Source of the DNA: Clostridia bacterium
GTDB taxonomy: Bacteria > Bacillota > Clostridia > Lachnospirales > WQUN01
NCBI GenBank assembly: GCA_025997155.1
Contig: BNUF01000053.1
Coordinates: 1 to 14,417 of the forward strand
Reading direction: 5' to 3'
DNA: 14,417 nt
Part shown: positions 1 through 14,417 of the stretch, in pieces
Numbering within the stretch: position 1 is the stretch's first letter
How the letters are laid out: the number at the start of each line of letters is the position of its first letter
The notes under the pieces: model-generated
Database searches by the model: none
Seen by the model: only the letters and a program-made list of their open reading frames with translations
What the model was told of the DNA's origin: nothing
Translations under genes and position numbers: made by a program

Positions 1-1072
1 TTCCGACAAACAAAAAATCACCGTTTGTAAACTCAACGCCCGAATGACTTTCAAGGCAGTCAATCCCCGCCACAACATATCCTTTGTATATATCGCGTTC
101 GCCCGATAAAGCGTAAATATCCGCGCCCTGCTTTATCGTTATGATTTTGCGTTCAACCTTGCCGTTTTTGTTCATCTTATCTATTTCAAGTTTCGCGTTA
201 AAACCGTTCTCCATCGACACCGAAACAACCTTGATATACGGGCGGTTGAAGTCGCCGTCAACTTGATTGCTCGATACGCAGATTTGCTTTACAAGCCCCA
301 TTTGGTAAGCGTCCACGGGAGTTAATCTGTACAGCAGATTATTTTTCTCTCGGTGAGTCGCCGAATACCGCAGCACCACAAGCGGGTTAAGGCTTGCTAT
401 CGCCTCTTTCGCTTTTGGCGTGTTGTAAACGGACTGCGGTTCGTCAATAATCACAATAGGGTTAGTGTCCGTTATATACTTCATAGCCGTCTCGCCAGAC
501 AGCTTGTCCTGCGCCTGATTTATGACATTTTCGGACTTCTTGAACGCGTCAATATTGATAATCATTATCTCAATGTCGCTTGAAGTGGCGAACAGCCGCA
601 CCTCCGACAGCTTTTTACTGTCATAAATAAAGCTCCTCACGGGCGTATTATTGTACTGCTCCGAAAAATGCTCGGCGGTAATCTGAAACGATTTATACAC
701 GCCCTCGCGGATAGCTACAGACGGCACGACAACGATAAACTTCGTAAATCCGTACTGTTTGTGGAGTTCAAAGATAGTTTTTGTATAGACATAAGTCTTG
801 CCCGTCCCCGTTTCCATTTCAACGCAAAAAGACCTCGGCTCGTCCGCCGAAACAGGCAGCGAAAGCCTCTGCTGAACGGCGTTCATATTCGTTCGGATTG
901 CCTCGTCCGTCACGGAAAGACCGTTCGTGTAGCCCAACCCTCCCATAAGGTCAAGCTGTGTTTCGTTTGTTATCGTGAACGTGTCAAGCCGTTTCTCCTG
1001 CCCGCGAAACAAGTCCGCAACGGCGTTCACCGCTTGTGTTTGAAACTCCTGCGTCTTAAATTTCAGTTTCAT
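1..1072 (-). CDS. res: Type III restriction enzyme, Res (helicase/nuclease) subunit, N-terminal part
   Basis: The frame is open from the ATG at 1072 to the left window edge (357 codons, no stop), so only the N-terminal part is present. It encodes the SF2 translocase/nuclease subunit that works with Mod to cut foreign DNA after ATP-dependent communication between sites. Visible motifs are Walker A METGTGKT (residues 86-93), Walker B-like IIDEPQ (about 208-213) and SATH, helicase motif III (237-240). The DEPQ form and the METGTGKTYV context are typical of type III Res. The C-terminal helicase lobe and the PD-(D/E)xK nuclease must lie beyond base 1. An AAGGGG ribosome binding site sits just before the ATG. 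The gene follows the subtilisin gene after a 72-bp gap (1073-1144) with no clear promoter, so it is probably read from upstream. In a standard type III system it would directly follow mod; here two genes separate them. Confidence 0.9.
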   Translation of the reverse strand, partial: MKLKFKTQEFQTQAVNAVADLFRGQEKRLDTFTITNETQLDLMGGLGYTNGLSVTDEAIRTNMNAVQQRLSLPVSADEPRSFCVEMETGTGKTYVYTKTIFELHKQYGFTKFIVVVPSVAIREGVYKSFQITAEHFSEQYNNTPVRSFIYDSKKLSEVRLFATSSDIEIMIINIDAFKKSENVINQAQDKLSGETAMKYITDTNPIVIIDEPQSVYNTPKAKEAIASLNPLVVLRYSATHREKNNLLYRLTPVDAYQMGLVKQICVSSNQVDGDFNRPYIKVVSVSMENGFNAKLEIDKMNKNGKVERKIITIKQGADIYALSGERDIYKGYVVAGIDCLESHSGVEFTNGDFLFVG

Positions 1073-1144: not shown

Positions 1145-3070
1145 TTACAATTTAAGTTGTATAGGCGTTTTAATCCTGTCTTTAATCTTTACATTTGCCT
1201 GTTCCAATAATTTTTGACGAAGCAAAATATCCGTATCTCCGTCATATGAATAAGTAATTGCTATAGCGTATGGCTGCGGGCTTTTTTCGTCTGGGTGCGC
1301 GAACTTTTCTTTGCCTGTAACGAGAACATAAAGATACGGATTTTGTTCATTCAATAAATCTTTTCCGCCTTTAGCTGTGTTCTCATACATTCTTTGCTGT
1401 AAGGTTGATTTGTTAAGGGTGGTGCTTCCGGGTGTAAATTTCTGCGCAGAGTGCTTTTCTGTATATTTTTTCATAATTTCGTCTGCTTCTTCGTCCTTGT
1501 GTTCCGCCGATTTTGCTTTATATTTAAGTAATTCTTCTTCATCTGTGTCCTTGAACACTTCAAAGTGTAGGCTATTTGATATATATGCTTGTCTGCTTAG
1601 CCTTATCGGCGGGTTATAAGCAAAGCTTATGGTAATGCGTTTATTTGCCTTTACTGTTAAAAATTCAGGCGGTATTGGTATTTTGTACAGGTCTAAGTCG
1701 CGCAATGTCAACTCGTCTTCCGCAAAAAGCGTAATGTTATTAAATGTCGAAGATATTGTTGAGTCATCAACTTTTCCATACCCACTCAATCTCATTTTCC
1801 ATTCTTGTATTTTTCTTTTTTCACCCGTAAAATTCGGTTCGTTTGAGCCTTCAAGCCATTCTTCTTGTGTATATTTAGCGGAATTTGCAAGTACGGCTCT
1901 GATTAAATTAGCGGAAGGTCTATGCCCCATTTGTTTTTCTAATGATTTTTCAATTCTTGCGGTTATATGAGTAACGTGAGGAGCGGCAAAGTTTGTACCA
2001 ACATATCCCTTAAACGCTTTTTCAGTCGTATTGTTAAGCGTTGGTTCAAGCAGAGCCTTGTTATTTGGCTGCCACCTTGTATGGTTGTTTCCTCTTGGCA
2101 TTTGCGTCAGACAAAAATTGCCTCCATAGTCCGCAAATTCAGGTTTGACTGCCTTGTTTACACCAAATCCTGTTCGAGTAAAAACTGAAGGATAATTCTC
2201 GTTTCCCACGGAAACAGGTGCTGTTCCAGAACTGCTCGGAGATTCTGGTGCCGCGTATCGCGTGATAGCCCCTACGGTTATACCGAGAGCTGTTGTAGCA
2301 GGGTCAAGCAATCTGTGTTTCGGCGTTAAAAGGTTGTCCCGAATTTTTTCGCAAAGTTCGCTTCTCGTTCCAACATCGGGAATTTCAGGATATGACACAT
2401 TGCCCGCGCTTACAACAATAACTATATCAAGTTCTTTTTGCAGCAAGTCAAGAGAGTATGCCCAAGGCATTTGACGCCCTCCGTCATAAACACGGTCGGT
2501 ATCACCAGAAGACAAGTTAAAGATTCTGCAATTATAAGTATCGTAAAAATATCTTACAGCCTTTTCAATTATTATTTCAGGGCGTTCATCAACGGAATAG
2601 GCCGGATTTCTTCTATCGTCATTGTGCATAACTTTTCCGTTGCAAATTTTTACAAGCGGTGTAAAGATTTTGTTTTCTCTATCAAAATCTGTGAAATCTC
2701 CATAAGCTACTATTCCCGCTATACCTGTCCCGTGACCATTCAAGTCTGTTGTTGTATTTTCTGTAACATCAAAATCATTTTCAGCTGCAATCAGTGAAGA
2801 TAATAGTTTATGACCTGAATATACGCCGGAATCAAGGACGCAAGCAATAGGCGCGTTATCTGAAAGAGTATTGTTTACTCTCGGGACAAAATCCGAGCCA
2901 TACAGTTCATATGTTTCAACAGATGAAGACGTCATAGGCAAATCAACAGAGGCAATTAACTCTAAATCTAACAAAGAGTTTAGCGTAAACTCATTTACCT
3001 CGGCGCGTCCAAGTAAAATATTCTCAAGTTCAAATAAATCCCCTAACAATTTACTGCCGCCAGTTCCCAA
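1145..3070 (-). CDS. ietS: IetS-like subtilisin-fold (S8) protein, C-terminal piece; catalytic Ser replaced by Asn
   Basis: This is the catalytic-domain portion (641 codons from a TTG at 3070) of an S8 family serine protease interrupted upstream by an in-frame TAA. The subtilisin motifs appear in order: the Asp motif CVLDSGV (Asp80), the His motif NGHGTGIAG (His113), and the oxyanion motif SAGN (Asn224). The Ser motif is usually GTSxAAP but here reads GTNFAAPHV, with AAC (Asn360) at 1991-1993 in place of the nucleophile. As written, the protein should have no protease activity. The TTG start has no good ribosome binding site, and homology continues upstream past it in the same frame, so 3070 is a default start and not a natural one. 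The family partner is the AAA+ ATPase encoded upstream; in IetAS the two act together as a defence or plasmid-exclusion module. GC content (about 35-43% in sampled rows) is lower than in mod and res. The assignment to S8 is secure. Assignment to IetS rests on architecture and context. Confidence 0.85.
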   Translation of the reverse strand: MGTGGSKLLGDLFELENILLGRAEVNEFTLNSLLDLELIASVDLPMTSSSVETYELYGSDFVPRVNNTLSDNAPIACVLDSGVYSGHKLLSSLIAAENDFDVTENTTTDLNGHGTGIAGIVAYGDFTDFDRENKIFTPLVKICNGKVMHNDDRRNPAYSVDERPEIIIEKAVRYFYDTYNCRIFNLSSGDTDRVYDGGRQMPWAYSLDLLQKELDIVIVVSAGNVSYPEIPDVGTRSELCEKIRDNLLTPKHRLLDPATTALGITVGAITRYAAPESPSSSGTAPVSVGNENYPSVFTRTGFGVNKAVKPEFADYGGNFCLTQMPRGNNHTRWQPNNKALLEPTLNNTTEKAFKGYVGTNFAAPHVTHITARIEKSLEKQMGHRPSANLIRAVLANSAKYTQEEWLEGSNEPNFTGEKRKIQEWKMRLSGYGKVDDSTISSTFNNITLFAEDELTLRDLDLYKIPIPPEFLTVKANKRITISFAYNPPIRLSRQAYISNSLHFEVFKDTDEEELLKYKAKSAEHKDEEADEIMKKYTEKHSAQKFTPGSTTLNKSTLQQRMYENTAKGGKDLLNEQNPYLYVLVTGKEKFAHPDEKSPQPYAIAITYSYDGDTDILLRQKLLEQANVKIKDRIKTPIQLKL

Positions 3071-3094
3071 CGCGGTTTTTATACGACTTTCAAT

Positions 3095-3667
3095 TTAAAT
3101 CATACTGCTACATTCAGTATTCCAAACATCAATATCAACCTTAAACACATTTGGAAGCTCTTTTTTATTTAGAGCTATTTTTAATCTCGGACCCACCCTG
3201 TCACCTTTTGAAACAATATGTATATCGTCAATGCAATCAAAGAAAGATTCTCTTTGGGTTGATGTAAGAAGTGACTTACTGGCAGTTTCATTTTTATACT
3301 TTTCACACTCCGCCCTAAATTGATTGATGTCGGCTTTACTCTCAAACTGCACTATTAGCTTGGATTTATTATCTGTTAGTTTTATTTCGGATACCACAAA
3401 AAAATTAAGTTTACTTGAAGAGTCGTCTATATTTTTCGGAGAAATGGCATTGGCGGATAATTCAAGTACAAGAAAATTATTAGGTTCTATTCCTATAATT
3501 TCACGATTTTGCTCAATTTCGGAAATAGAATCATCTATATTTTTCGTCAAAATATTGCCGTGGTCAAGGCGGTCTCGTTTGGGAGGCTTTGGAGGGTGTG
3601 TATTTCGCTTGAATTTGTACTCAGACTTTTTTATACTTTCTTTAGCGATTTCTATGTGGTTATCCAT
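3095..3667 (-). CDS. ietS: IetS-like subtilisin-fold protein, N-terminal piece (cut short by in-frame TAA)
   Basis: The 190-codon frame starts at ATG 3667 behind a strong GGGGGGTG ribosome binding site, 16 bp after the ATPase gene, so it is translated as the second gene of the pair. It begins with a Lys/Arg/Pro-rich segment, then has an FLVLEL strand (about 65-70) and ends FKVDIDVWNT plus seven residues before TAA at 3095-3097. The same frame then continues through eight sense codons into the TTG at 3070 and on through the subtilisin domain. Read together (1145-3667), they give one 840-codon frame with a single stop at codon 191. The size and the order of N-terminal domain then protease suit this S8 family. 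I therefore read this as the N-terminal domain of a split gene and not as a separate small protein. A real two-polypeptide arrangement remains possible. Confidence 0.75.
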   Translation of the reverse strand: MDNHIEIAKESIKKSEYKFKRNTHPPKPPKRDRLDHGNILTKNIDDSISEIEQNREIIGIEPNNFLVLELSANAISPKNIDDSSSKLNFFVVSEIKLTDNKSKLIVQFESKADINQFRAECEKYKNETASKSLLTSTQRESFFDCIDDIHIVSKGDRVGPRLKIALNKKELPNVFKVDIDVWNTECSSMI

Positions 3668-3683
3668 TTACCACACCCCCCGT

Positions 3684-4673
3684 TTAATATTGAGTTTTTC
3701 TAAGGTTTACAAGTCGTTCTTGCTGTAAAACCGCGGTTTCAACATCGCTTTTAGTATACATACGCCTACCGTCAAGGATACACCGTTTAAGTACACTCAC
3801 TGCCGCTTGTTCTGTGTCAGAGTGTGTGAAATTTTCCATATGTTTGGCAAACTCTTTTATAATATTTTGAGAGCCGTCAAATTGGTTTAATCTAATATTG
3901 AACAAGCGTACTCTGTCATCGTTGTCAGGCATATCAAATCTAAGCGTACTATCAAATCTTCGCCATACGGCATAGTCAAGGGACTCTTCAAAATTTGTGG
4001 CGGCAATGATTAAAGAACGCCCCTTAAAGCTGTCTACTTGCTGTAAAAAGGCATTTACAACTCGCTTAATTTCACCGTGTTCGTGTTGGTCGTTCCTGCT
4101 CCGCCCTATAGCGTCAAATTCGTCGAACAATATAACATAGTTGTCGTTTTTTGCAAAATCAAACACCTTACGAATGTTGCTTGCGGTTTCGCCTAAATAT
4201 GACGATATAACGCCGTCAAACCTTACATACAAAAGCGGCAAACCTATTTCGGAAGCGATTGCGTGAGCGGTTAGCGTTTTGCCGCAACCGGGGCAGCCGT
4301 AAAATAAAATACGCCGCATTGGATACGCTCCATTACTAAGCAATACATCCCAATTGATAAACTCGTGTATTATCTGCTGTATTTGCTGTTTATTCTCATT
4401 GGTAAGAACCACGTCCGAAAGTTCCTTTTCCGGGAACATTATCTCAAAAAATTTACTTTCTTGTTCGTTACAGTCGTTTAGCGAAAGCGCAGATACCGAG
4501 TTCTTGGGAATAATAAAACCTTGATTTATAATATTTTGCAATCTGTTTGCCATTGTTGCGTGATTTTTCTTTCTCTCATCTTCGATTATCTCGTTGGCAG
4601 TCTTAATAATGCCATCTCGATTATTTTTCATAACATCAGTAAACAACTGTTCAATCAAGTCCGATTTTATCAT
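3684..4673 (-). CDS. ietA: AAA+ ATPase, IetA-like partner of the subtilisin protein
   Basis: This is a 329-residue AAA+ ATPase with every core motif intact: Walker A GCPGCGKT (126-133), Walker B VILFDEFDAIG (180-190, with Asp184 and Glu185), sensor-1 AATN (224-227) and an arginine-finger region WRRFD (237-241). A helical N-terminal region (1-110) precedes the ATPase core. The start is fixed by GGAGGTG seven bases before the ATG. A stand-alone AAA+ ATPase of about 330 residues immediately upstream of an S8 protease is the IetAS arrangement, known as an incompatibility determinant and as an anti-phage system. The ATPase is thought to control or deliver substrate to the protease. Unlike its partner, this gene shows no damage. 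It has its own candidate promoter upstream, besides possible read-through from mod. GC content is low compared with mod. Other AAA+/S8 pairs of unknown role are the main alternative. Confidence 0.85.
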   Translation of the reverse strand: MIKSDLIEQLFTDVMKNNRDGIIKTANEIIEDERKKNHATMANRLQNIINQGFIIPKNSVSALSLNDCNEQESKFFEIMFPEKELSDVVLTNENKQQIQQIIHEFINWDVLLSNGAYPMRRILFYGCPGCGKTLTAHAIASEIGLPLLYVRFDGVISSYLGETASNIRKVFDFAKNDNYVILFDEFDAIGRSRNDQHEHGEIKRVVNAFLQQVDSFKGRSLIIAATNFEESLDYAVWRRFDSTLRFDMPDNDDRVRLFNIRLNQFDGSQNIIKEFAKHMENFTHSDTEQAAVSVLKRCILDGRRMYTKSDVETAVLQQERLVNLRKTQY

Positions 4674-4812: not shown

Positions 4813-6657
4813 TCACAGAGATTTTATCGTAATGCCTTTGTCACGCAAAATGAGTTTTACGTTGGTTTTCTGCTCGGTGTTGTCAAAACAGCTGTCCGCA
4901 AAGACAATTCGCCCGGGTGCGTATTTTGCCATTTCCTCCGCGTCCTCGGCTGAAACATCGGGGGCAAGGCATACGATAAACTTTACGTTCGCGCATACGC
5001 CGTATACGGTTTTGCCGTTTATGTTAAGAGGTGTCACAGCCTCGCACAAGTCCTGCCCGAATTTAAGCATTACCTCAAAGGTTACGTCAAGGTCGGAGCG
5101 GTCGGGGTTTAGAATGTCGATATGGGCGCGGAGACGGTCAAGCAAGATTTTAGCCGCCACGGCGGGGTCTTTTTCGCGGATTGGTGAGGTGTCCCACGCT
5201 TTTAGGTTTGAGGTGTCAAGTTTGAACGCCCTAAAACCTGTGTCTAAGTTAGGCGCGGTAAGTTGGTTTTCGGCTTTGATTTTCGCGCCTGCACGGCGTA
5301 TTCTTTCTTTTCCGATTTCGCAAATATTTTTGTACCCCGCCTTGTAGGCTTCGCTTTTTTCGTCACACAATTCAGGGAGTTGTACGCAAATAAACCGCCG
5401 ATTTCCTCCGTCCTCGGCGTTAAGTTGCATAACCGCGTGGGCGGTTGTCGCGCTTCCGCTGAAAAAATCTAAAATAGTGTCGTCATTCTCTGTCGCGTGA
5501 AATGCCAGACGTTTTATCAGTTCCATAGGTTTAACCGTTTCAAATCCGTGATTACCCAAAATTCCAGCAAGTTCCTTTTTTGCGCTTTCTGCCGTTCCGA
5601 TTTCTTTTGACAAAAACGCCCAAAATGGTTCTGTGGTTTCGTTCCGTTCAAATTCTGGACGCATTTTGATAACCACTTTTCCGTCACGAATAAACAAGTT
5701 GTTTCCAGTTTTATATGTGGCAACTTGAGATTGTCCAATTTGCCATTGTTTCCCTTTGGGCGGTGAAACAGTAGCAACTCCATCGGAAATATCAAATATC
5801 ATAGTTTCACGTCCGCGTATTCCTGTTGCGTTCATTAATTCAAGAACGTGTTCTCTGTATTTGCCTTGTTCGTCTTCCAATGGATAATCCCGTTTCCCTT
5901 TTTCCAATAAGTTAAAGCGGCGTTTGTCGTGTTTTGTGTACACTAAAATATGTTCAATTTTTGGTTGAAGTTTATTGAACGCCGTAATAGTGTTTTGAGA
6001 TTTTGTTTTAGATTCCCACGCTATATTACCTATAAAATTTTCTTCCCCGAAAATGTCATCAAGAAGATACCGCAAGTTGCGTACCTCGGTATCGTCAATA
6101 GATATGAAAATAACGCCGTCGTCGCGGAGCAGGTTAGCCGCAAGGCGCAACCTCGGGAACATCATATTAAGCCAGTTTGTATGAAATCTGCCCATTGTTT
6201 CCGGGTTGCTTTTCGTAGCTTGGCTTGTAATCTCTTTGTAGCTCGCAATCGGGTCGGCAAAATTATCCTCGTACACAAAGTCGTGTCCCGTGTTGTACGG
6301 CGGGTCAATGTAAATCATCTTGACTTTGCGGAAATATGAGGTCTGCAAGAGTTTCAGCACCTCAAGATTGTCGCCTTCAATGTATATGTTTTTGGTGGCG
6401 TCCCAGTCCGCGCTGCTCTCTTTGTCGGGGAGCAGCGTCCCCGCCGTGCGCCTGTTCGCGAGTTTTTGCGCCTCAACCTTGCCTTTCCAGCGAAACTCGT
6501 ACTTCTCAAAATCGTCCTCAATGTACTCTCCGCAAAGATTCAGAAGTTTATCAATCTGCAGCTTCCCGTCCGCAAAACACTCGGGAAACACAGACTGCAA
6601 GCGGTCACGGCTTTTTTGTTCTACGTCCATTGACGCAGCTATAAATTTATCGTCCAT
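4813..6657 (-). CDS. mod: Type III DNA methyltransferase, Mod subunit (beta-class N6-adenine)
   Basis: The 614-residue protein methylates adenine in one strand of a short asymmetric site and gives the complex its specificity. The catalytic motif IV DPPYNTG (118-124) comes before the SAM-binding motif I DFFSGS (397-402). This is the beta-class order, and the length is typical of type III Mod. The stretch between these motifs holds the target-recognition domain. I chose the ATG at 6657 because GAGG lies six bases upstream; an in-frame ATG at 6687 has no comparable site and lies close to the predicted transcription start. A strong promoter precedes the gene. By hand count, bases 5461-6060 (residues about 200-399) have about 38% GC, while sampled rows on either side are mostly 50-60%, suggesting a swapped recognition domain. 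The gene looks intact. Its res partner is separated from it by the AAA+/subtilisin pair. Confidence 0.93.
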   Translation of the reverse strand: MDDKFIAASMDVEQKSRDRLQSVFPECFADGKLQIDKLLNLCGEYIEDDFEKYEFRWKGKVEAQKLANRRTAGTLLPDKESSADWDATKNIYIEGDNLEVLKLLQTSYFRKVKMIYIDPPYNTGHDFVYEDNFADPIASYKEITSQATKSNPETMGRFHTNWLNMMFPRLRLAANLLRDDGVIFISIDDTEVRNLRYLLDDIFGEENFIGNIAWESKTKSQNTITAFNKLQPKIEHILVYTKHDKRRFNLLEKGKRDYPLEDEQGKYREHVLELMNATGIRGRETMIFDISDGVATVSPPKGKQWQIGQSQVATYKTGNNLFIRDGKVVIKMRPEFERNETTEPFWAFLSKEIGTAESAKKELAGILGNHGFETVKPMELIKRLAFHATENDDTILDFFSGSATTAHAVMQLNAEDGGNRRFICVQLPELCDEKSEAYKAGYKNICEIGKERIRRAGAKIKAENQLTAPNLDTGFRAFKLDTSNLKAWDTSPIREKDPAVAAKILLDRLRAHIDILNPDRSDLDVTFEVMLKFGQDLCEAVTPLNINGKTVYGVCANVKFIVCLAPDVSAEDAEEMAKYAPGRIVFADSCFDNTEQKTNVKLILRDKGITIKSL

Positions 6658-6703
6658 GTAAACCTCACTATGATACCTTAAACACATCGTTGCCTATCTC
6701 TAC

Positions 6704-6732
6704 ATTATACCCGAAACTTGTGAAGTTGACAA
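6704..6732 (-). promoter_or_regulatory. Strong promoter for mod, with a possible operator dyad
   Basis: On the minus strand, -35 TTGTCA (6727-6732; 5/6) and -10 TATAAT (6704-6709; 6/6) are 17 bases apart. The start point would be near 6697, giving a leader of about 40 nt. A 13-bp inverted repeat AACTT-CAC-AAGTT (6715-6727) fills the spacer and touches the -35, a common operator position. The promoter sequence is clear; the operator reading is inference. Confidence 0.7.
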
Positions 6733-6736
6733 CTAT

Positions 6737-6837
6737 TACACATTCCAGTTTGAAACATCGGGAAGTGCATTTTGGAACTTCCACGCTTCAAGGAAGTTTC
6801 AAAATGTGCTTGCCGATGATTGAAAACGGAATGTGTA
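6737..6837. repeat. 101-bp imperfect palindrome with 10-bp perfect terminal inverted repeats (MITE-like or long hairpin)
   Basis: The left arm 6738-6782 and right arm 6792-6836 pair over 45 positions with 37 Watson-Crick matches, around a 9-base loop. A further T-A pair at 6737/6837 makes the outermost 10 bp, TACACATTCC/GGAATGTGTA, perfect. Three of the eight mismatches (6766/6808, 6767/6807, 6775/6799) would be G-U pairs in plus-strand RNA. TAT stands directly outside both ends (6734-6736 and 6838-6840), resembling a short target duplication. The element fills the gap between the pheS stop and the mod promoter. No T-run follows the hairpin on the minus strand, so it is not a standard terminator. 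It could be a miniature transposable element, an RNA hairpin or a regulatory structure. Confidence 0.7.
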
Positions 6838-6861
6838 TATCCCTTGAGGTGTCGTATTTTA

Positions 6862-7881
6862 CTAGAATTGTTTAAGGAATTTCACGTCGTTTTCGTACAA
6901 CGCCCGCATATCGGTTATTCCGAATCTCTGCATAGCAAGCCGCTCAAGCCCCATTCCGAAGGCGAACCCCGAATACAGATTTGAATCTATCCCCGACATT
7001 TCAAGCACACGCGGGTGAACCATACCGCAGCCCAAAATCTCGATAAACCCGCTGTCGCCGCAAACCCGACACCCTTTGCCCCCGCAGGCGAAACAGGACA
7101 CGTCCATTTCCGCGCTGGGTTCTGTGAAAGGGAAGTGGTGCGGGCGAAAGCGTACTTTCGCGTTTTCTCCGAAAAGTTCCCGCGCAAAGACCGCCAACGC
7201 TCCCTTGAGGTCGCCCATCGTAACGCCGCGGCCCACAACCAGCCCCTCCAGCTGGTGGAACACGGGCGAATGTGTCGCGTCCACCTCGTCGGCGCGGTAG
7301 ACGTTCCCGGGAGCTATAATACGTATCGGGAGTTTGCCTTTTTCCATTGTGTGTATCTGCACGGTGGACGTTTGCGTGCGGAGGACGTGTCCCCCGTCCG
7401 TGTAGAAAGAATCCCCCGTGTCGCGGGCGGGGTGGTCGGCTTGAATATTCAGCGCGTCAAAGTTGTAGTATTCCGTCTCAATATCAGATCCTTCCGCGAT
7501 TTCGTAACCCATTCCGATAAATATATCGCTTACCTCGTTTATTATCGCCGACATCGGGTGTCTGTGTCCCAGTCCCTTACGTTTGCCGGGTATAGTCACG
7601 TCGATTTTTTCCGAAAGCAGACGCGCCTCTTGCCGAGCGGAGGAAAGGCGCGTTTTCGCCGACTCAAGCCCGTTTTCGATAAAGGCGCGTGTTTCGTTCA
7701 CAAGCTGCCCTACGGCGGGACGCTCCTCTTTTGAGAGTTCGCCCAGTCCCTTAAGAATCGCCGTGAACTCGCCCTTTTTCCCCATATACTTTACGCGGAT
7801 TTCCTCGATTGCCTTGAGCTCTTTCGCGTTCGCGAGTTCGCCCTCGAGTCTGTTTCGCACTTCCTGTAATTTTTCTTTCAT
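6862..7881 (-). CDS. pheS: Phenylalanyl-tRNA synthetase alpha subunit
   Basis: This 339-residue protein is the catalytic subunit of the alpha2-beta2 enzyme that charges tRNA-Phe in the cytoplasm. An N-terminal coiled-coil arm (1-95) is followed by a class II synthetase core. Motif 2 lies around GNVYRADEVDATHSPVFHQ (192-210), and motif 3 is FGMGLERLAM (308-317). FTEPSAEMDV (252-261) and the paired-cysteine segment CFACGGKGCRVC (263-274) are typical of bacterial PheS. Full length is present. The ATG at 7881 is preceded by AAGGAG and lies two bases after the upstream phosphatase stop, so the two genes are translationally close and share a transcript. pheT normally follows directly, but here the downstream DNA is the palindrome and the mod-res defence block. 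pheT must be elsewhere or displaced beyond the window. Confidence 0.97.
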   Translation of the reverse strand: MKEKLQEVRNRLEGELANAKELKAIEEIRVKYMGKKGEFTAILKGLGELSKEERPAVGQLVNETRAFIENGLESAKTRLSSARQEARLLSEKIDVTIPGKRKGLGHRHPMSAIINEVSDIFIGMGYEIAEGSDIETEYYNFDALNIQADHPARDTGDSFYTDGGHVLRTQTSTVQIHTMEKGKLPIRIIAPGNVYRADEVDATHSPVFHQLEGLVVGRGVTMGDLKGALAVFARELFGENAKVRFRPHHFPFTEPSAEMDVSCFACGGKGCRVCGDSGFIEILGCGMVHPRVLEMSGIDSNLYSGFAFGMGLERLAMQRFGITDMRALYENDVKFLKQF

Positions 7882-9929: not shown

Positions 9930-9970
9930 CGTTGTATACGCTTTTTTTAAAGACAAAGGAGCAACCGCAT

Positions 9971-11071
9971 ATGGAAAACAAAAAATTCAACACCGCGCTG
10001 ATACACGGCGGTTTCAGGTTTGACAAACACACGGGGGCGGTGAATATCCCGATTTACCAGACTTCGACCTACGCGAAAAAATCCGTGTCGGAGAGTGTTT
10101 GCGGGTATGAGTATTCGCGCAGCGGCAACCCGACACGCGCCGCTCTCGAGTCGCTTATCGCGGAGCTTGAGGGCGGGATGCGGGGGTTTGCGTTCGCGTC
10201 CGGTATGGCGGCTGTCACGGCGGTTTTGTCGATATTTAAGAGCGGGGACACAATCCTTGTGACGGACAACGTGTACGGCGGCACGTTCCGCGTACTCGAC
10301 AAAGTTTTCTCCCACTTCGGGATAAAGTATAAGTCAATCGACACGAGCAAACCCGAAAATATCGAAAACGCCCTCACGCCTGACGTTGCGGCAATTTTTG
10401 TCGAAAGCCCGACGAATCCGCTTTTGACGGTCACGGACTTGTCGGCTATTGCGGAAATCGCCAAAAAGCACAGCATTTTGTCGATTGTTGACAACACCTT
10501 TATGACGCCGTACTTGCAAAAACCGCTTGAGCAAGGAATCGATATAGTCGTGCACAGCGCGACAAAGTTTTTGGGCGGACACAGCGACCTCATAGCGGGG
10601 CTTGTCGTGACAAAGGACGATGTGCTGGGCGAAAGAATCGGGTTTGTCCAAAACAGCACGGGCGGCATATTACAGCCCTTCGACAGTTTTTTGCTGATAC
10701 GCGGGATAAAGACTTTGGCGGTTCGTATGGACAGACACATACAAAACGCCGATAAAGTCGCGGAACTCCTGAAAAACAGCCCGTATGCGGATAAGGTGTA
10801 CCATGTCGGGATACCCGTGGTATCTTTTGAATTGTCAACTTCCAAAAACCTTGATAAATTTTTTGATAACCTTAAGATACTTACATTGGCGGAGAGTCTG
10901 GGCGGGATTGAGAGCCTTATGTGCCACCCCGCGACGATGACGCACGCCTCCATACCCAAAGAAATGCGGGACGCGCTGGGGATAAAGGATAATTTAATCC
11001 GCGTTTCGGTCGGAATAGAAGATATTGACGATATTTTAAAGGATTTATCCTACGCGCTTGAAAACGCGTAG
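9971..11071 (+). CDS. mccB: PLP-dependent cystathionine gamma-lyase / homocysteine gamma-lyase
   Basis: The 366-residue Cys/Met-metabolism PLP enzyme splits cystathionine to cysteine in reverse transsulfuration. The PLP lysine is Lys199 in SATKFLGGHSD (196-206). Other family marks are YEYSRSGNPTR (46-56), FASGMAA (75-81), ESPTNP (145-150), and SLGGIESL plus HPATMTHASIP near the C-terminus. I chose the ATG at 9971 because AAAGGAG lies nine bases upstream; an in-frame ATG at 9932 would lie at the transcription start with no ribosome binding site. The family usually has 15-20 more residues between the VYHVG turn (about 277) and VSFEL (284-288). The segment with the conserved GxGG(M) run seems to be missing in frame. 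The mccA gene follows 20 bp later, which favours MccB over MetB (cystathionine gamma-synthase). Substrate preference cannot be settled from sequence. Confidence 0.85.
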   Translation: MENKKFNTALIHGGFRFDKHTGAVNIPIYQTSTYAKKSVSESVCGYEYSRSGNPTRAALESLIAELEGGMRGFAFASGMAAVTAVLSIFKSGDTILVTDNVYGGTFRVLDKVFSHFGIKYKSIDTSKPENIENALTPDVAAIFVESPTNPLLTVTDLSAIAEIAKKHSILSIVDNTFMTPYLQKPLEQGIDIVVHSATKFLGGHSDLIAGLVVTKDDVLGERIGFVQNSTGGILQPFDSFLLIRGIKTLAVRMDRHIQNADKVAELLKNSPYADKVYHVGIPVVSFELSTSKNLDKFFDNLKILTLAESLGGIESLMCHPATMTHASIPKEMRDALGIKDNLIRVSVGIEDIDDILKDLSYALENA

Positions 11072-11091
11072 TTAACAAAGGGGGGTCTGTA

Positions 11092-12018
11092 ATGTACTAC
11101 AAGTCTATTCAGGAACTTATCGGAAACACGCCTATCGTGCAGCTGTCCCGCGTACTTTCGCGAATGTCTAAGCCCGTTAATCCGGGCGTGAATCTGTTCG
11201 CGAAACTGGAACTGTACAATCCGTCCGGGAGCGTCAAAGACAGAATCGGGCAGTCGATGCTCCTTGACGCGGAACAATCGGGAGCGCTTGTCGCGGGCGG
11301 GACGATTATCGAGGCGACGGCGGGCAACACGGGTCTCGGGATAGCTTTTGCCGCACTCGGGCGAGGGTATCGCGTGATTTTTGTCGTACCCGAAAAATTT
11401 TCACAGGAAAAACAGACGCTTATGCGGGCACTCGGCGCGGAGGTTATCAACACCCCGAAAGAGGGCGGTATGCAAGGAGCGTCGAAAAAAGCGGAAGAAC
11501 TCCGCGACGAAATCCCGAACGCCGTGGCGTTTCGCCAGTTCAAAAACCCTGTAAACCCCGAAACGCACTACAAAACCACGGGCGCGGAGATTTACGCGGC
11601 AATGGAGGGCAAAATCGACTATATCGTTTGCGGGGCGGGGAGCGGCGGCACTTTCAGCGGGATTATGAAATATATGAAAGAACGCGACCCGAATATCAAA
11701 GGGATTCTCGCCGACCCGCTGGGTTCGGTTATCGGCGGCGGGGAACACGGCGAATACGACATTGAGGGAATCGGCAACGATTTTATCGCCGAAACGATGG
11801 ATACGTCCCTTGTCGATTCGGTAATCAAAATAACCGACCGCGAGGCGTTTGAACACACGCGTCTTCTTGCCCGCGAAGAGGGGATTATCGCGGGGAGTTC
11901 GTCGGGGGCGGCGCTCGCGGCGTCTTTGCGTTTCGCAGCTACAATCGAAAAAGGCAATATCGTCACCGTTTTCCCCGACAGGGGCGACCGATATTTCAGC
12001 AAAAATTTACTGGGTTAA
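11092..12018 (+). CDS. mccA: Cystathionine beta-synthase (O-acetylserine-dependent) / cysteine synthase family
   Basis: The 308-residue fold-type II PLP enzyme probably joins homocysteine to activated serine to give cystathionine, the substrate of the preceding gene product. PLP Lys49 lies in NPSGSVKDR (43-51), the substrate loop is EATAGNTG (74-81), and the PLP phosphate loop is GAGSGGT (181-187). GSSSGAA (268-274) contacts the PLP ring. The EATAGNTG loop, PEKFSQEKQ (100-108) and the GGMQGA segment (125-130) resemble Bacillus MccA and cystathionine beta-synthases more than CysK, which usually has EPTSGNTG. There is no regulatory CBS-pair domain. The ribosome binding site AGGGGGG lies before the ATG, 20 bp after mccB, so the two form an operon. 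Plain cysteine synthase (CysK) is the alternative. Confidence 0.85.
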   Translation: MYYKSIQELIGNTPIVQLSRVLSRMSKPVNPGVNLFAKLELYNPSGSVKDRIGQSMLLDAEQSGALVAGGTIIEATAGNTGLGIAFAALGRGYRVIFVVPEKFSQEKQTLMRALGAEVINTPKEGGMQGASKKAEELRDEIPNAVAFRQFKNPVNPETHYKTTGAEIYAAMEGKIDYIVCGAGSGGTFSGIMKYMKERDPNIKGILADPLGSVIGGGEHGEYDIEGIGNDFIAETMDTSLVDSVIKITDREAFEHTRLLAREEGIIAGSSSGAALAASLRFAATIEKGNIVTVFPDRGDRYFSKNLLG

Positions 12019-12061: not shown

Positions 12062-12109
12062 AAAACATAAATCATATCTAACTAATATGTATAATATGTT
12101 TTATGTTTT
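12062..12109 (+). repeat. 16-bp inverted repeat in the leader of the nitrogenase-like operon
   Basis: Arms 12062-12077 and 12094-12109 are inverted copies with 15 of 16 matches around a 16-base, AT-rich loop. A third ATATG copy at 12085-12089 could pair with the left arm instead. The dyad lies between the predicted start point and the GGAGGGG ribosome binding site at 12114-12120. It could be a leader hairpin or a repressor/activator site. It has no terminator T-run after the right arm beyond TTTT. Confidence 0.65.
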
Positions 12110-12125
12110 TCGTGGAGGGGTAAAT

Positions 12126-13610
12126 TTGGAGAATATTATAGATTTAACCATGCCGGAAGTGTCCGTGCGTGAAATCCGTCTCGGGTCTATTACAGGGTTT
12201 GCGGGGACTGCGCAGGAGCTAGTCGACGGGTCGCGTGACGGCACGCTTAAAAATAAAACGCGTTCGTTCAGCCAGTGTCTCGGCTGTTCGACAGCCAACG
12301 CGGCTTGCACCGTGATACTCATTCAGGACGCGGCGGTTATAAGCCACGGGCCTGTCGGGTGTTCGACCTGTCTCCACGAGTTCGCGTTCACGTACCGCGT
12401 AAACGCGCCTAGCCGCGGCGTTGAAAAGCCGACGCAGCGCAAAGTTTTCACGACCAATCTTGAGGAAAAAGACACGGTATACGGCGGCGGCGAGAAACTT
12501 GCCGCGACTATCCGCGAAGTCAAGGAACGCGTCAACCCCAGTGCTATTTTCATACTCACCACCTGCGCGTCGGGGATTATCGGCGACGACGTTGAGAGTG
12601 TCGCGGACGAGGCGGAGGACGAACTCGGAATCCCGATTATCGCTCTCTTCTGCGAGGGATTTCGTTCAAAGGTGTGGACCAGCGGATTTGACGCGGGGTA
12701 TCACGGGATTGCGCGAAAAATCATCAAACCCGCCAGAGAACGCCGAAAAGACGTGATAAACGTAATCAACTTCTGGGGGAGCAACGTTTTTGCGGACTGG
12801 TTCGAGCGTCTTGGCGCAAAACCGAATTATATCACTCCGTATTCGACCATAGAAAGCCTTAAATATTCGTCCGAGGCGGCGGCGACGATTCAGATTTGTC
12901 CGACTCTCGGTTCGTACCTTGGCGCGGTGCTTGAAAAAGAATACGGAGTACCTGAGCTCCGAACCGCTCCCCCCTACGGAATCGCCCAAACCGAACGCTG
13001 GTTTAAGGAACTGGGGCAACTTCTCGGCAAGGAAGCGGAGGCGGAGGCGTTTTTAGCCGAACAACGCGCCGAGTTTACGCCTAAGATAGAGTCGCTGCGC
13101 GAAAAACTTAAAGGAAAAACCGCCTATGTGACGGCGGGAGCGGCACACGGACACGGACTCCTCTCCGTGCTTGCGGAACTTGGGATAAAACCAATCGGGG
13201 CGGCGATTTTCCACCACGACCCGCTTTATGACAACGGGTGCGAGGAATCGGACGCGCTCGCGCAAGCAGTCCGTGATTACGGCGACGTGAAGAACTTCAA
13301 CGTATGCAACAAGCAGGAGTTTGAACTCGTTAATATCCTCAACCGCCTTCGCCCCGACGTGATGCTTGCGCGGCACGGAGGTATGACTCTCTGGGGGGCG
13401 AAATTCGGTATTCCGACACTTTTAATCGGCGACGAGCATTTCGGTATGGGCTATGAGGGGCTTGTGAAATACGGCGAGCGTATCCTTGAGACAATCGAAA
13501 ACGACGAATTTGTAAAAAACTTGGAGAAACACACGATAAACCCATATTCTAAATGGTGGCTTGAACAGCAGCCCTTCGCCTTCTTGGGTACTGAAGGAGG
13601 GGACGAATAA
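12126..13610 (+). CDS. Nitrogenase-like oxidoreductase, D (NifD-like) subunit; possibly methylthio-alkane reductase MarD
   Basis: The 494-residue protein belongs to nitrogenase component 1 and aligns by eye along NifD. Cysteines at P-cluster positions are present: the CLGCSTANAAC segment (Cys51/54/61), GPVGC (Cys79) and TTCASGIIGDD (Cys147). The NifD region that holds the FeMo-cofactor Cys matches QICPTLGSYL, with Cys258 conserved. This points to a catalytic D subunit that holds a metal cluster, unlike the BchN/ChlN group. A candidate His is in GDEHFGMGYEG (434-444), but I cannot confirm it as a ligand. The TTG at 12126 is chosen because GGAGGGG lies five bases upstream; ATGs at 12087 and 12150 lack such a site. 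The stop overlaps the K-subunit ATG (TAATG), so the two are coupled. No NifH-like gene is in the window. Adjacent transsulfuration genes suggest sulfur metabolism and hence the methylthio-alkane reductase group, by inference only. Confidence 0.85.
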   Translation: MENIIDLTMPEVSVREIRLGSITGFAGTAQELVDGSRDGTLKNKTRSFSQCLGCSTANAACTVILIQDAAVISHGPVGCSTCLHEFAFTYRVNAPSRGVEKPTQRKVFTTNLEEKDTVYGGGEKLAATIREVKERVNPSAIFILTTCASGIIGDDVESVADEAEDELGIPIIALFCEGFRSKVWTSGFDAGYHGIARKIIKPARERRKDVINVINFWGSNVFADWFERLGAKPNYITPYSTIESLKYSSEAAATIQICPTLGSYLGAVLEKEYGVPELRTAPPYGIAQTERWFKELGQLLGKEAEAEAFLAEQRAEFTPKIESLREKLKGKTAYVTAGAAHGHGLLSVLAELGIKPIGAAIFHHDPLYDNGCEESDALAQAVRDYGDVKNFNVCNKQEFELVNILNRLRPDVMLARHGGMTLWGAKFGIPTLLIGDEHFGMGYEGLVKYGERILETIENDEFVKNLEKHTINPYSKWWLEQQPFAFLGTEGGDE

Positions 13611-13722
13611 TGTCGGGTATGATTGAACAGGAGCGTTACACCTGCGCTATCGGCGCGTTGCAGAGCGTCGTCGCTATACCGCGCGCCGTGCCGATTCTTC
13701 ACTCGGGGCCTGGGTGCGGCAC
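13610..13722 (+). pseudogene. Nitrogenase-like K (NifK-like) subunit, N-terminal 37 codons, interrupted by an inversion
   Basis: The ATG overlaps the D stop by one base and has GGAGGGG upstream, so this is the real start of the partner K subunit. Residues 1-37 carry two P-cluster-type cysteines: YTCAIGAL (Cys12) and the HSGPGCG turn (Cys36). After GGCAC at 13722 the homology stops. The plus frame reads on for about 35 unrelated codons to a stop at 13829-13831, and those codons are the complement of the oppositely oriented K segment. As assembled, no functional K protein can be made from this start. D without K should be inactive, because the P-cluster is shared between the two subunits. Confidence 0.85.
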
Positions 13723-14417
13723 CCTGTTCAAGGGCGAAATCCAGAAGACGGCGCAAAAATTTCTCGGTCTCGTTCGCTCCGATTGGAATATACGGAAACT
13801 TAAAGTACGGTTGGTCATAAAGTTCATGTAAATGCGCGACAATCGGCTCGCCGTACCACGGCGAAACGAGTACGTTGAAGTTCGCCCGCGGAATAGTTTT
13901 CCACTCCGAAACGCCCGCCGATTCCGGCCCGAAAAGTACGTTTACCTTAAGCCCTAGATTTTCTATAAGGCGTTTGTATTCCCTCAAATTCCCTTTCCAA
14001 AAGGGGTCTTGATAAGGGATAGACGCGAACAGGTTCACGGTGTTTTTTTCGCTCCGCGTGGGGTTATCTCCCTCAAAAAGCGCGACGTACTGGTCGATAA
14101 TCGCGTTCACAACGTCGCTGTGGGCGATAAGGTTGTTACACTTGAACCCGGGCGTTTCGACGCAAACAATCGGTTTGCCTATTTCCGCGAATTCGGCGGT
14201 AAGGCTCTCCACGTCGTCCCCGACGATACCCGCCGTACACCCCGTAAGGATTACCTGTAAATCCGTGTCCAAAACTTTGTACGTATTTCTTACAACATCG
14301 CGCAGCTGGTCAATCCCGCCGAACACAACCTCGCTTTCGCCGAAATTCGTACACGGAGTCGTGTTTCCCCCCGCGTACCCTTTCGCCCGCTCGAAGAATC
14401 CGTTTATCATTGTGCCG
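13717..14417. other. Inverted DNA segment bounded by 6-bp inverted repeats CGGCAC / GTGCCG
   Basis: CGGCAC at 13717-13722 and its reverse complement GTGCCG at 14412-14417 bound a 689-bp segment (13723-14411) that is backwards relative to its gene. Flipping it gives TGC GGC ACA ATG at the left junction and GAA CAG GGT GCC at the right, one open K frame. The repeat may be longer than six bases, because the right copy ends at the window edge. A site-specific invertible element, a fixed inversion or a chimeric join would all leave this pattern. Confidence 0.7.
13723..14417 (-). pseudogene. Nitrogenase-like K subunit, internal part (about residues 38-268), on the opposite strand
   Basis: Read on the minus strand, this segment continues the K protein exactly where the plus-strand fragment stops, with GT-MINGFFERAKGYAGG at the right edge. 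It goes on through TTPCTNFGESEVVFGG (NifK-like), LTGCTAGIVGDD (the third P-cluster Cys), WYGEPIVAHLHELY and FPYIPIGANETEKFLRRL. Homology ends at the Gln codon finishing at 13724. Farther left the minus frame is only the complement of the plus-strand K start and of D. Its ATG at 14410 is an internal Met and not a start. The C-terminal part of K (perhaps 180 residues) should lie beyond 14417. If the segment is flipped, both junctions stay in frame. Confidence 0.85.

Follow-up and report, generated by a model that had tools for sequence, protein, structure and literature searches.

Programmed excision of DNA inside nifD occurs in heterocyst-forming cyanobacteria, in which the element is removed by its own recombinase. 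The locus described here likewise carries a DNA rearrangement inside a nitrogenase-family gene, whereas its rearrangement is an inversion at a 6-bp repeat. Invertons are DNA segments bounded by inverted repeats, for which a length of 10–40 nt is given (PMC11892184). Inverted joins are also generated during DNA amplification. Among 475 chimeras from single-cell amplification of Escherichia coli, 406 were inverted, 337 of these 406 inversions spanned less than 10 kb, and the overlaps at the joins reached up to 21 nt (PMC1855051). In chimeras from amplified human DNA, the overlap length peaks at 7 nt with more than 95% at 3–13 nt, GC-rich overlaps are favored when short, and the preferred distance between the partners is 80–280 nt (PMC5372508). 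Template switching at inverted repeats is reported for another strand-displacing system (PMC9484634), and palindromic reads are reported for amplified tardigrade DNA (PMC13265396).

The locus resembles the inverted chimeras of multiple displacement amplification (MDA) in the features reported for them (PMC1855051; PMC5372508): the second segment is inverted, both segments belong to one locus and lie well within 10 kb of each other (689 bp), the join carries a short reverse-complement overlap (CGGCAC, the second partner of which is deduced from a Gly-Ala-G reading), and many similar joins are found in the same genome. The 6-nt overlap fits the human data, while the distance of 689 bp exceeds the range preferred there (PMC5372508). 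Unlike those chimeras, which were described from reads, the present one is known from contigs alone, and amplification is presumed. With invertons, the locus shares a segment inverted between inverted repeats; in contrast to them, its repeat is 6 bp instead of the 10–40 nt of the definition (PMC11892184), a single orientation is seen, the contig has no recombinase match and none of 80 relatives carries the inversion.

A nitrogenase-like K gene split across both strands

The window, that is, the whole stretch of 14,417 bp that was analyzed, is the entire contig C53 of a draft genome of 502 contigs and 3.05 Mb that is rated 77% complete. The right end of the window contains the following features.

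12087..13610, plus strand: intact nitrogenase-like D subunit gene (507 aa), directly upstream of K; PF00148, 297.1 bits against a cut-off of 28.6
13610..13722, plus strand: 5′ end of K, residues 1–37 and two bases of codon 38
13717..13722, plus strand: CGGCAC, left copy of the 6-bp inverted repeat, putative priming overlap of a fold-back
13723..14411, minus strand: K from the third base of codon 38 to codon 267, in the opposite orientation to that in all 80 relatives examined; PF00148
14412..14417, plus strand: GTGCCG, right copy of the repeat and final six bases of the contig

The start codon of K is the ATG at 13610. On the unflipped plus strand, residue 37 is followed by 36 codons of unrelated sequence and a stop, and residues 38–267 are read from the minus strand (14416 down to 13723). 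Inverting 13723–14411 (689 bp) creates one frame of 267 continuous codons of K. The rearrangement is genuinely present in the sequence, and the initial annotation was correct in describing a K gene split across strands, a frame restored by the flip and bounding CGGCAC/GTGCCG repeats. Its minus-strand piece is correctly located and consists of 230 codons, the first of which is split by the join, rather than the 229 that had been counted. The frame-perfect join claimed for both sides holds for the left one; the right junction is not visible, as 14417 is the last base of the contig and a search of the 502 contigs with a full-length hybrid query did not find K from residue 268 on. Both D and the K piece (13723–14416, 132.8 bits against 28.6) exceed the Pfam cut-off for the nitrogenase component 1 superfamily (PF00148). 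Regarding named nitrogenase or NifEN subunits, D and the K piece stayed below the cut-off in every NCBIfam equivalog or subfamily match, which is a weak result for K as a partial protein.

Gene order in relatives

A genome scan found 111 relatives, of which the 80 named ones (L027–L106) were kept. The flipped K product aligned with each of the 80 as a single tblastn piece on one strand, with 66–79% identity and with at least residues 4–260 covered. None of the 80 has a gap in the alignment columns of residues 31–46 around the join, and a few have small gaps elsewhere. Therefore, the flipped order is the correct order of K. The check for the same inversion in related genomes, which had been proposed at the outset, thus gave 0 of 80. 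A search of the own genome for an intact copy of the same K, using the hybrid query, returned only the two pieces on C53 and a paralogous pair on C70. In the protein collection, the piece as query gave 79 matches with a top identity of 78%. The hybrid query, the final 178 residues of which come from L027 and raise the identities, gave 2974 matches; among the 120 listed, one protein reached 87% and the rest up to 81%.

The 6-bp repeat

When the minus-strand frame is followed beyond the join, the six shared bases give Gln-Gly-Ala-G. Gly-Ala stands at K positions 268–269 in 57 of the 80 relatives, and L048 and L068 have the identical bases GGGTGCCG at this position. Considering this agreement, the intact K gene probably holds the 6-bp inverted pair at codons 36–38 and 268–270. 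The Gly-Ala-G reading is what a genuine K origin of the overlap would predict.

The repeat in itself is nothing unusual, as 788 inverted 6-mer pairs spaced 100–1500 bp apart occur in the D and K stretch in its intact order; the one feature not expected by chance is the origin of both pieces from a single gene. Five of the six bases of CGGCAC are G or C. A 13-bp inverted repeat (13292–13304 and 13871–13883) was set aside, since it lies away from the breakpoints. Across 202 contig ends, nine in-frame flips, including that of the window, were obtained from 347 inverted 6-mer pairs. By eye, six of the other joined proteins resemble an antisense reading fused to an ordinary reverse-strand gene, and no other same-gene flip at a 6-bp repeat was seen among these ends. 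Frame continuity together with a 6-mer is therefore weak evidence, and the telling criterion is the homology of both parts to one gene.

Fold-backs elsewhere in the assembly

The survey for similar joins covered 141 of the 502 contigs (C40–C180, including C53). An exact inverted self-overlap of at least 20 nt was present at 12 of the 282 ends, with lengths of 127, 127, 99, 99, 75, 73, 57, 54, 51, 34, 27 and 20 nt, vs. 0 of 60 true ends of other genomes, which were not matched for the assembler and had a longest inverted overlap of 12 nt. When the same contigs were cut at random, 5 of 282 cuts had such an overlap; all five lay in L135, L150 and L235, three contigs that also appear on the fold-back lists. 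Direct terminal overlaps of at least 20 nt were found at 5 of the 282 ends vs. 1 of 60 in the other genomes. Of the 141 contigs, which total 1.25 Mb, 17 contain inverted self-matches of at least 98% identity, compared with none of 80 control loci totaling 0.83 Mb. In two of the 17, the match is a palindrome of about 30 nt, and some of the internal self-matches may have a natural origin. In C79, arms of 4944 bp form a perfect palindrome with 253 bp at its center, and C111 is a near-complete palindrome with 3.7-kb arms and three mismatches.

The closest parallel to K is groEL. PF00118 has only two matches in the genome, both on C109, at 5964–6899 (plus strand) and 7109–7711 (minus strand), which are two parts of groEL in the same layout as K. 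When the 770 bp that precede the 51-nt overlap at the end of C109 are inverted, an unbroken GroEL results (820.8 bits against a cut-off of 397), and the last 51 bases of C109 themselves also show the correct groEL join. An inversion inside groEL is expected to be lethal. A broken sole groEL copy is not credible biology, although a second groEL is possible in an incomplete genome. Mobile elements or invertons were also considered as a source of the terminal inverted overlaps (20–127 nt), and groEL in C109 is not so explained. Some of the 12 may nevertheless be natural, as C116 (L187) carries an integrase-like gene and C141, C164 and others may belong here; the 98-bp hairpin of C61 (L110) is probably natural. 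A flip at the terminal overlap restored a recognizable whole gene only in C109. Several other contigs seem to be in the right order without a flip, and it is their terminal join that would be false.

Several further contigs were noted in passing. By eye, C42 looks like a fold-back in atpG. C186 carries a PF00142-type match close to either end, the two being identical and on opposite strands (47–175, minus strand; 4199–4327, plus strand), with another match on C114, and C186 is probably another palindromic contig. The 10.1-kb palindrome of C79 (L150) has its center inside a gene for a reverse transcriptase, which matches group II maturase and Drt3a models below the cut-offs and lies beside two similar open reading frames ending in ..WWLRSPG..VRPALWLN; by eye, this region is possibly a diversity-generating retroelement.

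The contig end and a k-mer model

The end of C53 coincides exactly with the 6-bp repeat. In a simple k-mer model, in which a random stand-in replaced the missing downstream part of K, a genome with only the inverted order gave one unbroken contig through the repeat. An intact genome with one snap-back gave a K unit that extended past the repeat by 120 bases (k = 127), and an intact genome with snap-backs from both strands gave a unit that ends exactly at both repeats, as in the window. The K piece with both repeats (701 bp) corresponds to this repeat-bounded unit. A true mixture of orientations produced a graph identical to that of two snap-backs. Thus, the exact end disfavors a fixed inversion, while it is equally compatible with two snap-backs and with a flip-flop. 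Among the terminal overlaps elsewhere, six measure exactly 127 nt (four direct, two inverted), and the lengths of 11 of the 12 inverted overlaps are at most 4 nt away from 21, 33, 55, 77, 99 or 127, a match made post hoc with a chance of about 0.0008 for even lengths. These values are presumably the k series of SPAdes.

Origin of the flipped segment

The flipped K piece is almost certainly an artefact of fold-back copying or assembly at the end of C53, and K is most likely intact in the cell. This reading rests on the many other fold-backs in the draft genome, one of which splits the only groEL found in the same way, and the competing explanation that had been set beside a DNA switch, a short-homology fold-back chimera or an assembly error, is supported by them. 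The chimera may have arisen during library making or during whole-genome amplification, most likely with a strand-displacing polymerase as in MDA. A growing 3′ end with CGGCAC (K codons 36–38) would pair with GTGCCG about 690 bp onward (K codons 268–270), and the paired 3′ end would copy the opposite strand back, so that residue 37 would be followed by residue 267 in reverse complement. This chimeric join would then be kept by the assembler, with the contig broken off at the repeat. From the contigs, we infer that amplification was the cause, that priming took place as described and that the intact gene has the right-hand repeat copy. Several observations run counter to an artefact: the overlap at the window end is only 6 nt, in contrast to the lengths near k values of 11 of the 12 inverted overlaps elsewhere; the exact end needs both inverted junctions in the k-mer model, hence snap-backs on both strands or a real flip-flop; and the genome holds many recombinase genes.

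These last two points would suit a true invertible segment, in which the 689-bp piece exists side by side in its two orientations and a recombinase inverts it at the 6-bp repeats, turning K on or off in part of the population. No phase variation within a nitrogenase-like enzyme is known to us so far, and such a switch, if real, would be the first. The genome has 19 matches to PF00239 and 14 to PF00589. However, a profile search found no match to either family on C53, in line with the earlier remark that no invertase gene is in view, with the other side of the locus unassembled; the 6-bp repeat is below the length given for inverton repeats (PMC11892184), such pairs arise by chance in hundreds within D and K, and no relative examined shows the inversion. 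A recombinase would have to act on 6 bp amid contigs with the same kind of fold-back, including that in groEL. The proposed on/off switch is thus unsupported and highly improbable. A fixed inactivating inversion in the lineage, caused by microhomology-driven rearrangement, would explain why C53 shows only the inverted order, and a second D–K pair on C70 could make the loss of K bearable. Against it, the model predicts a contig that runs past the repeat, yet C53 stops on its last base, and the K frame is otherwise clean across 267 codons; this alternative, which had been raised with the switch, is disfavored and extremely unlikely. An assembler or scaffolder could also have misjoined two correct contigs computationally, with no chimeric molecule involved. 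The traces of several k values among the overlap lengths (127 at six ends and 99 at two) and the correspondence of the 701-bp piece to the repeat-bounded unit agree with this, but the 3.7–4.9-kb palindrome arms are more easily explained by real fold-back molecules and the 6-nt overlap is far below any k value seen, which makes a purely computational misjoin very unlikely.

With a fold-back artefact as the preferred reading, K is most likely an ordinary, intact gene and the flip would have no biological significance. Fold-back chimeras in draft genomes can mimic intragenic invertible segments, including short inverted repeats and a restored frame. Even when reads are not at hand, such artefacts would be exposed by testing whether contig ends overlap with their own sequence in inverted orientation and whether housekeeping genes are split in this way.

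Other genes of the window and the genome

Directly upstream of D, the window encodes a Cys/Met-metabolism PLP enzyme and a cysteine synthase-like protein (9932–12018), a sulfur-metabolism setting that, in our view, is reminiscent of methylthio-alkane reductase loci. The second nitrogenase-like D–K pair (C70, 6638–9306; L119, L021), with a K that is 42% identical over 439 residues, lies just upstream of a gene that by eye resembles rpoB. Just one strong match to a NifH-type reductase occurs in the genome, on C25 (13296–14105; L252; PF00142, 421 bits), a contig that carries neither D–K pair. At the other end of the window, 1145–4673 (minus strand) contains a pair of genes, one matching PADLOC IetS (S8 peptidase) and the other IetA (AAA ATPase). 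The two enclose a gene for a 190-aa protein that has no PADLOC match, and the pair is flanked by the Mod and (cut) Res genes of a type III restriction system (2–1072 and 4813–6687).
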